Source: Planomonospora sp. ID67723 (GTDB lineage Bacteria; Actinomycetota; Actinomycetes; Streptosporangiales; Streptosporangiaceae). Taken from it: a DNA stretch of 64,000 nt. How positions within the stretch are numbered: position 1 is the stretch's first letter; every line of letters starts with the position of its first letter. The notes beneath the pieces were generated by a model that had not been told where the DNA came from, ran no database searches, and saw only the letters and a program-made list of their open reading frames with translations. Below are positions 10,142-61,585 of the stretch, in pieces. The position numbers and the translations under genes are program-made. Location: assembly GCF_015711605.1 (NCBI RefSeq), contig NZ_JABTEZ010000007.1, positions 62,001-126,000 of the forward strand, written 5' to 3'.

Positions 10142-10171
10142 CCCATCGGCGACGCTTCTCCCCGTATGAGG
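10142..10171 (-). promoter_or_regulatory. Sigma-28 (FliA/WhiG)-type promoter of fliM operon
   Basis: CCTCA, 16 bases, GCCGATGGG on the minus strand. One of twelve sites in the window with this form and spacing. Confidence 0.8.
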
Positions 10172-30356: not shown

Positions 30357-30992
30357 TCAGACCGCGGGGTCGGCCGGGTCGGTCGGCTCGGCCGGGTCCG
30401 TGGGCTCAGCGGGGTCGGTCGGCTCGGCCGGGTCCGTGGGCTCAGCGGGGTCCGTGGGCTCAGCGGGGTCCGTGGGCTCGGCCGGGTCGGTCGGCTCGGC
30501 CGGCTCCTCGGGCTCGGGCTCGGGGTCGTGGGCGTTGACGTGAGCGGCCGCGTAACCGGTCACGCTCTTGACACCGTTCGCGGTGACCACGTCATCGACG
30601 GCCAGGAGGTCGAAGCCGCCCTTGACGTCGTCCTTCACGATCTTGGTGGTGGCGGTCACGCGGATGACGATGTCCGTTCCGCGTGCGAGCTTGGAGCCGC
30701 TGGTCACGTCCATGGTGATGGTGCGGGCCGTGGCGTCCACCGCGGTGACCGTGCCGACCGCGGCGAAGGGCTGCACGGCCTTGGCCCGGGCGGCGGCGGC
30801 CTTGGCCTTGGCGGCGGCGGCGGCCTTGGCGAGGGCGGCGGCCTTGGCCTTGGCGGCGGCGGCCTTGGTGGTCGCCGCCTTCGTGGTCTTGCTCTTCGGA
30901 GCGGCGTTCGCGGTGCCTGCGGCCACGGGCACGCTCACGGTCACCGCGGCGGCCAGCAGCAGCGCGGTCCAGCTCTTCCTGATGTTCGACAC
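30357..30992 (-). CDS. Secreted repeat protein in the flagellar-type regulon
   Basis: 211 residues from GTG 30992 with GAGGACG upstream. A signal peptide ending GTANA-APK is followed by a Lys/Ala-rich helix (TTKAATTKAAAAKAKAAALAKAA), a small beta domain (VGTVTAVDATARTITMDV ... TKIVKDDVKGGFDLLAVDDVVTANGV) like DUF5666/OB folds, and an acidic tail with about eight EPTDPA repeats. A sigma-28-type promoter lies at 31031-31060. The polycationic stretch and polyanionic proline-rich tail suggest a wall- or matrix-binding surface protein. Function unknown. Confidence 0.75.
   Translation of the reverse strand: MSNIRKSWTALLLAAAVTVSVPVAAGTANAAPKSKTTKAATTKAAAAKAKAAALAKAAAAAKAKAAAARAKAVQPFAAVGTVTAVDATARTITMDVTSGSKLARGTDIVIRVTATTKIVKDDVKGGFDLLAVDDVVTANGVKSVTGYAAAHVNAHDPEPEPEEPAEPTDPAEPTDPAEPTDPAEPTDPAEPTDPAEPTDPAEPTDPADPAV
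30361..30515. repeat. 18-base tandem repeats encoding EPTDPA
   Basis: About eight imperfect units (GGGTCGGTCGGCTCGGCC and variants with CCGTGGGCTCAGCG) at the 3' end of the secreted protein gene. Unit length divisible by three means copy number can change without frameshift. Confidence 0.85.
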
Positions 30993-31030: not shown

Positions 31031-31060
31031 CCGATCGGCACGAGGAAGGACCGCTTGAGG
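31031..31060 (-). promoter_or_regulatory. Sigma-28-type promoter of the secreted repeat protein
   Basis: CCTCA, 16 bases, GCCGATCGG on the minus strand, about 38 bases before the GTG start. Confidence 0.72.
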
Positions 31061-33969: not shown

Positions 33970-33999
33970 CCCATCGGCCGCGCGGAGCCCGATCTGAGG
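33970..33999 (-). promoter_or_regulatory. Sigma-28-type promoter of MCP1
   Basis: CCTCA, 16 bases, GCCGATGGG on the minus strand, about 65 bases before the start. Confidence 0.8.
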
Positions 34000-38484: not shown

Positions 38485-38514
38485 CCCATCGGCCGCCGCC
38501 GGATCCTCCTGAGG
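38485..38514 (-). promoter_or_regulatory. Sigma-28-type promoter of flhA-flhF-PilZ operon
   Basis: CCTCA, 16 bases, GCCGATGGG on the minus strand, about 75 bases before the flhA start. Confidence 0.8.
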
Positions 38515-44418: not shown

Positions 44419-44448
44419 CCTCAGATAAGGGCGGCTGGTGCCGATGGG
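44419..44448 (+). promoter_or_regulatory. Sigma-28-type promoter of MCP4
   Basis: CCTCA, 16 bases, GCCGATGGG on the plus strand, about 33 bases before the start at 44482. Confidence 0.8.
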
Positions 44449-58386: not shown

Positions 58387-58767
58387 CGTCTTCTCCTGGC
58401 GTGTGGTCATCTGCCGTGGTGGTACAGGTCGTGGGGGCGTGAGCCGGTCGGGTTCGCCCGGGGGACGGGCGGTCCCGCGGGCACGACCAGGAGAGGGGGA
58501 GGGCCCGATACCGGTGACGGGCAGGGGTTCAGCGCGCGCCGGGGGCCGGATCGGCCATCGAACCGACGTTCGGTCATGCGGGATGAGCGTTCGGTTGCTC
58601 CACGGGTGCAGATCCGTTGCCGGGGAGGCCACGCGAATTCAAAGCCTCGGTCACAACCACATGAACAGGGTTGATAACGTTCTGTTTGGGGTGAATCGCT
58701 ATATGTGATGAAGCTTCAAGGTTCTGGGGAGGACCGTGAGGCGCCGGGGGAGCCTGTGGGGGGCAGC
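58387..58767. other. Divergent intergenic region
   Basis: Between the GGDEF-EAL and kinase genes. The stretch at 58640-58705 is AT-richer and probably holds the kinase promoter (TTGATAACG region). No sigma-28-type site with correct spacing and no RNA structure was seen. Confidence 0.4.
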
Positions 58768-60625: not shown

Positions 60626-60655
60626 CCTCACTTCTGACCGTTTTCTGCCGATTCT
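60626..60655 (+). promoter_or_regulatory. Sigma-28-type promoter of the secreted metalloprotease
   Basis: CCTCA, 16 bases, GCCGATTCT on the plus strand, about 85 bases before the start at 60743. Confidence 0.75.
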
Positions 60656-60742
60656 TCGTACGAGGAGTGCCGTCGAGGCGGCTCCTTGCCGGACCGGCGA
60701 CCCTTGCTCGCCAGGCAGGCCAGGCGAGTCAGGGGTTCCAGG

Positions 60743-61585
60743 TTGAGGAGTCGCGTCGGCAGAGTGCTGCCGGTGGTCCTCGCGGGTTGCGCGGTGGCCG
60801 TCACGCTCGTGGCATCGGTGGCATCGACCGTGGACGAGCTGCGTCTTCAGTCGTCCCCCGCCGAGGAACTGCTGGTCGACATGGACGCGGTGTACCCCGG
60901 CGACCGGACCGCCTCCCAGGTGGAACCGGACACGAGAACCTCTGCGAAGGCCAAGCGGTCGCGCGCCCTGACCTCCAGCGCGGCCCGCGCGCAGTGCCGT
61001 GACAGCGCTTACGCCCTCGCGGGCTGGCGCGTCAAGGGCGGCCTCAACTGGTACTACAACCCCTCCGGGGCCCCCTCCGCGGTCTCGCGCTCGGCGCTCG
61101 CCGCGGTCAGGTCGGCGGCCCAGTCCATGGCCACCGGCCAGAACGAGTGCCGCCTGCCCGGCCCGTTCAAGGTGGCCCAGAAGTACGGCGGCACCACGAA
61201 GCGGACAGCCGCCGTCTCCAGCGCGTCCACCGCCGCGTGCGGCAGGGAGGACGGCTACAGCGTGGTCTCCTGGAAGCGGCTCGGCTCGACCGCGCTCGCG
61301 GTCACCTGCACCTGGTGGACCCGCTCCGGCGGAGTGGTCTCCTCCGACATCGTCATCAACACCCGGTACCGGTGGTTCACCACACAGCCGAGCCGCTGCG
61401 CCTCCACCTACGACGTCCGGTCGGTGATGACCCACGAATGGGGCCACACGTTCGGGCTGAACCACGTCTCCCCCGCGCGGCACGGCACCCAGGTCATGGC
61501 CTCGACGATTCCCGCCTGCTCCTCGACCCGCACCCTCGGCGCCGGCGACCACAACGCCATGCGCAAGCTGTACGGCGTGCGCTGA
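60743..61585 (+). CDS. Secreted matrixin-like zinc metalloprotease
   Basis: 280 residues from TTG 60743 with AGGGG eight bases upstream (TTG 60686 is an alternative). Signal segment RSRVGRVLPVVLAGCAVAVTLVASVAS. The active site is THEWGHTFGLNHVS, i.e. HExxHxxGxxH of the metzincin superfamily, followed by a plausible Met-turn in TQVMASTI. Six Cys suggest disulfides. A pro-like segment with basic residues (TSAKAKRSRALTSS) precedes the catalytic part. Driven by a sigma-28-type promoter, so made when flagella are made. A role in degrading sporangial matrix for zoospore release is attractive but inferred. Confidence 0.85.
   Translation: MRSRVGRVLPVVLAGCAVAVTLVASVASTVDELRLQSSPAEELLVDMDAVYPGDRTASQVEPDTRTSAKAKRSRALTSSAARAQCRDSAYALAGWRVKGGLNWYYNPSGAPSAVSRSALAAVRSAAQSMATGQNECRLPGPFKVAQKYGGTTKRTAAVSSASTAACGREDGYSVVSWKRLGSTALAVTCTWWTRSGGVVSSDIVINTRYRWFTTQPSRCASTYDVRSVMTHEWGHTFGLNHVSPARHGTQVMASTIPACSSTRTLGAGDHNAMRKLYGVR

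Follow-up and report, generated by a model that had tools for sequence, protein, structure and literature searches.

A candidate FliA-transcribed exported metzincin with a possible role in zoospore release in Planomonospora

Motile sporangiospores are formed by Planomonospora, Planobispora and Spirillospora. To our knowledge, enzymes of zoospore exit from sporangia are known in Actinoplanes only, and these are polysaccharide hydrolases. A 64,000-nt stretch of the Planomonospora sp. ID67723 genome (hereafter the window) holds flagellar and chemotaxis genes together with a gene for a putative exported metalloprotease. Is this protease made with the flagella, and could it help the motile spores to emerge? 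The initial annotation of the locus had proposed both. The features discussed below are collected in Table 1.

Table 1. Positions of the protease gene, its upstream region, further promoter motif copies and the GH25 muramidase gene. Positions are those of the window unless a locus or contig is named.
Feature	Position	Strand	Details
FliA-type promoter	60626..60652	+	-35 CCTCA 60626-60630, 16-bp spacer, -10 GCCGAT 60647-60652
Protease 5' leader	60653..60742	+	~90 nt; conserved, two predicted hairpins
Exported matrixin-like metzincin protease (putative)	60743..61585	+	280 aa, TTG start; PF00413 29.9 bits
Signal peptide or membrane anchor	60743..60829	+	~residues 1-29; predicted cleavage point
Zinc-binding motif HEWGHTFGLNH	61433..61465	+	protease residues 231-241
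Met-turn methionine, QVMAST	61496..61498	+	protease residue 252
Promoter motif directly before fliM	10145..10171	-	exact motif
Promoter motif before exported-looking 211-aa protein gene	31034..31060	-	exact motif
Promoter motif before chemoreceptor gene	33973..33999	-	exact motif
Promoter motif directly before flhA	38488..38514	-	exact motif
Promoter motif directly before chemoreceptor gene	44419..44445	+	exact motif
Exported GH25 muramidase	L039:332-1459; G000:C2:591253-592380	- (L039)	PF01183, 171 bits

The promoter and leader of the protease gene

A perfect CCTCA-N16-GCCGAT site had been described in front of the protease gene. An exact site is present (CCTCACTTCTGACCGTTTTCTGCCGAT, spacer exactly 16), 90 bp upstream of the protease start, and the motif is enriched and of the flagellar type. 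The window contains nine copies of CCTCA-N14-18-GCCGAT versus 0.33 expected, and none of 100 shuffles reached nine copies. A scan of spacers from 10 to 22 gave eight copies with spacer 16, one with spacer 17 and none with any other. These copies mostly adjoin flagellar or chemotaxis genes (FliM, FlhA, chemoreceptors and others) and lie at or shortly before their starts. Across the 8.3-Mb genome, 18 exact N16 sites were found, compared with 7 in the reversed control; a 70-kb flagellar region (C7:52,319-122,652) accounts for 10 of the 18. CCTCA-N16-GCCGAT is a real flagellar-type motif. The flagellar consensus TAAA / GCCGATAA is common to WhiG and FliA (PMC8325347). Counting against the protease site, the sequence after its -10 element is GCCGATTCTT, unlike the GCCGATGGG of several flagellar sites. 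The genome encodes a single strong FliA-type sigma factor (C7:141448-142098), whose gene adjoins flagellin and whose score of 186 bits is slightly below the TIGR02479 curated cut-off of 189.6; sigma matches in the non-flagellate relatives tested gave ~127 bits at most.

Two further groups of genes behind this motif were noted. The 211-aa exported-looking protein (30357-30992, minus strand) is rich in alanine and lysine, has no Pfam match and is a further candidate zoospore surface protein. Four GGDEF proteins (L040, L041, L044 and L045) are preceded by exact CCTCA-N16-GCCGAT sites, a pattern that suggests that FliA may also control c-di-GMP turnover in this genome.

Absence of the promoter upstream of orthologs had been named as the finding that would speak against the proposal. 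We examined nine distinct orthologs: the window protease, those of five named species (Planomonospora venezuelensis and Planobispora longispora, takensis, rosea and siamensis), two from genus g16 and one from genus g38; a distant relative occurs in Klenkia taihuensis. Within the family the proposal withstood this check: an N16 site was found upstream of all nine. The sites end 80-90 bp short of the start and have 0, 0, 0, 1, 0, 1, 2, 2 and 2 mismatches. Such sites occurred in shuffled sequence at frequencies of 0 to 0.04. For the two-mismatch sites the frequency was 0.03-0.04, so that it is their aligned position that convinces, and not their score. When equally long stretches were drawn at random from the distant-homolog loci, 147 of 2100 contained a site with at most two mismatches. 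When other sporangium-forming genera were searched for the pair of promoter and protease, as the annotation had suggested, it was located in four Planobispora species, two g16 genomes and one g38 genome.

The leader between promoter and start codon is also conserved, with a mean column identity of 82% in six species. Its consensus fold contains two pairs with two-sided compensatory change, but the fold as a whole has no favourable covariation term. A role in regulation or mRNA stability is possible. No Rfam family was found for the leader; a mir-1729 match in this region was rejected at 20 bits (cut-off 80).

The encoded protease

The reading frame stops at 61585, and TTG 60743 is preferred as the start because a GTG occupies the same aligned position in orthologs of other species; a purine-rich stretch precedes these aligned GTGs. 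The product begins with arginines and a hydrophobic stretch (Kyte-Doolittle hydropathy up to 2.35 over 19 residues). Behind these come a linker that varies and a domain that holds six conserved cysteines, HEWGHTFGLNH and the Met-turn. Among 43 protease homologs, the H, E and H residues of HExxH are invariant and the next G, L and H are at least 90% conserved, as is M252 after the third histidine. Pfam Peptidase_M10 (PF00413) matches the protease at 29.9 bits against a cut-off of 24, with the C-terminal part alone covered. Among proteins of solved structure, a profile of the 43-member family matched matrix metalloproteinases best, with MMP-8 on top (E 9e-11), and the alignment spans the zinc site and the C-terminal helix. 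AlphaFold2 returned pLDDT values of 33 for the whole protease and 31 for its catalytic domain; the motif and the profile argue for a probable metzincin fold. The assignment as an exported metzincin, first made from a signal-peptide-like N-terminus and the zinc motif, is borne out by the residues, the motif, the Met-turn and the Pfam score.

HExxHxxGxxH, the Met-turn and an alignable C-terminal part are common to the protease and the Peptidase_M10 matrixins (MMP-8 and relatives). In contrast to MMP-8-type enzymes, the window protease carries six conserved cysteines in its exported domain, and its N-terminal half has no recognisable similarity to them. No PRCGxPD cysteine-switch motif is present in its sequence, and we therefore call it matrixin-like and not a classical MMP. 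NCBIfam NF041905 (myxosortase-dependent metalloprotease) matches all 43 family members weakly (best E 1.5e-15). The window protease reaches 51 bits, far under the 250-bit cut-off, and differs from that family in stopping at the catalytic domain, with no C-terminal anchor. A likeness to clostridial toxins was rejected: the phmmer matches in the PDB were weak, involved mostly repeat regions and fell on protease residues 71-119. These were judged to be low-complexity resemblance, since they lie outside the catalytic motif and the profile search yields matrix metalloproteinases instead.

Association with flagella and with a GH25 muramidase

Flagellin is present in 10 of 299 Streptosporangiaceae genomes. 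Close protease orthologs, defined by a score of 240 bits or more, were found in 9 of these 10 and in 0 of the 289 flagellin-less genomes (Fisher p 2e-16 with genomes that are non-independent; ~6e-6 when counted roughly by genus). Phylogenetic non-independence weakens these counts. The exception, G037, has flagellin and FlhA and gave no protease match. In 7 of the 9 ortholog genomes the protease shares a contig with flhA or flagellin, and the other two are fragmented assemblies. The orthologs form a supported clade (99/98) of flagellate genomes only. Homologs with roughly 27-40% identity exist in 27 flagellin-less g38 genomes; those fetched form a separate clade and have no such promoter at the right place.

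An exported GH25 muramidase shows a similar distribution. An exact N16 site (C2:592422-592448) lies 41 bp before its gene. Of 156 sampled family genomes, only nine, all of them flagellate, contain a GH25 ortholog scoring at least 340 bits, and all nine have the promoter with a spacer of 16 and 0-1 mismatch. GH25 paralogs and the homologs of non-flagellates have at least two mismatches and no consistent site. G037 has the GH25 enzyme and lacks the protease, G291 has the protease and lacks a close GH25 ortholog, so the two genes co-occur usually but not always. Given their shared promoter, both lytic enzymes appear to be under FliA control together with the flagella.

Outside the family, a class-wide sample gave no significant association between homologs and FlhA (2/38 vs 8/303), and the general flagella claim was dropped for this reason. 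Among 250 genomes of the order of Klenkia, FlhA is present in 11 of the 14 that have protease homologs, compared with 76 of 250 overall. Flagellates of this order have homologs in 7 of 8 genomes of 8 Mb or more versus 4 of 68 smaller ones, where the 8-Mb cut, chosen after the data were seen, stands in for mycelial life. This distribution favours a tie to spore-forming mycelial flagellates over one to flagella as such. The large-genome homologs group with the clade of the window protease at moderate support (84/86). No FliA site was recognisable near the starts of the homologs in these large flagellate genomes. One group of them (L073, L075, L076, L086, L087 and L088) shares a conserved upstream near-palindrome, GGAAACTTTTCCG, which is perhaps the site of a different regulator.

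Possible roles in zoospore development

Spore release in Actinoplanes missouriensis requires GimA and GimB, GH5 glycosidases under TcrA (PMC12691653). Like the window protease, these are exported hydrolases tied to motile-spore release in a filamentous actinomycete. They differ in that GimA and GimB act on matrix polysaccharide and have TcrA boxes, whereas the window enzyme is a putative metalloprotease with a FliA-type promoter; no TcrA box was found near 60626 with up to two mismatches allowed. Elsewhere in the window, an exact TcrA box (GCACCCG-n4-GCAACCG), overlapped by a repeat of it with one mismatch, lies at 58592-58620 (minus strand), between GGDEF/EAL and histidine kinase genes, and a TcrA-like regulator may control that locus. 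For A. missouriensis, PMC13293333 cites a report (Hashiguchi 2020) that the FliA-family sigma factors FliA1-3 act in sporangium formation, dormancy and dehiscence; they are of the same sigma type as that proposed for the window protease. The literature searched, which included few subscription papers, contained no metzincin target of FliA1-3 and no paper joining sporangium dehiscence with a metalloprotease. Proteases of other kinds may also be active in sporangia, since a subtilase-family gene adjoins asfR in Actinoplanes (PMC11960193).

What the sequence itself shows is a conserved promoter, an export signal, a zinc site, close orthologs confined to flagellates within the family, and a muramidase gene behind the same promoter. 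These features are consistent with a FliA-transcribed exported zinc endopeptidase of the zoospore regulon, acting outside the cell with GH25 to free or ready motile spores, an account that we favour while giving it only about an even chance. Weighing against it are the flagellate G037, which lacks the protease, the homologs in large flagellate genomes of the Klenkia order, which have no recognisable FliA site, and the use of GH5 glycosidases for spore release in A. missouriensis. The FliA-type sigma factor would transcribe the protease gene within the zoospore regulon, and the protease would be produced while flagella are assembled and work extracellularly. There it would cleave protein of the sheath, the sporangium wall or the spore surface and thereby free or ready the motile spore, and the FliA-controlled GH25 muramidase would loosen peptidoglycan alongside it. 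Dependence on FliA, activity as a protease, the substrate, the timing and the part played in spore release are inferred. Sporangium opening, the use foreseen by the initial annotation, is plausible and favoured, though unproven.

The same data bear on other roles under FliA. The protease might act late, trimming the spore surface or shedding flagella once zoospores stop swimming and germinate. The shared promoter and the flagellate restriction would fit this equally well, and late functions can accompany motility genes, since the gene for FtgA, a protein that ends swimming in Actinoplanes, belongs to a cluster of chemotaxis genes (PMC11960193). The lack of a homolog in 64 of the 68 small-genome flagellates of the Klenkia order makes a general flagellar role unlikely but is compatible with one in germination; overall we consider late action unlikely, yet worth keeping in view. 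Maturation inside the closed sporangium, in which the protease remodels the spore coat or lets flagella pass and takes no part in opening, seems to us rather improbable. It agrees with the strong induction of Actinoplanes flagellar genes already in young sporangia at 3 days (PMC11960193), and spore separation or the opening of peptidoglycan could fall to the GH25 partner, but a general need for flagellar passage predicts the protease in all flagellates, which is not seen.

Explanations that dispense with a developmental role or with the promoter fare worse. A secreted metalloprotease is a common kind of exoenzyme, and non-flagellate genomes contain distant homologs, as would be expected if the protease merely supplied peptides to the zoospore or its surroundings; the tight link to flagella within the family, where the gene is also physically linked to the flagellar cluster, makes such scavenging very doubtful. 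That the promoter match is due to chance and the protease is expressed from another promoter we can hardly credit: 8 of the 18 exact genome sites do lie outside the flagellar contig, several of them within coding regions, but position and spacer are conserved in nine orthologs from four genera.

Extending the favoured account of a FliA-transcribed protease acting with the muramidase, we tentatively propose, at somewhat less than even confidence, that in sporangial Streptosporangiaceae FliA drives spore release, directing both flagella and a paired exported metzincin and GH25 muramidase. If true, zoospores would be released here by a route other than the TcrA-GH5 one known from Actinoplanes. 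Placing a protease and a muramidase under the flagellar sigma factor would represent a second solution to zoospore exit, in another lineage, and one switch would join wall opening and motility.
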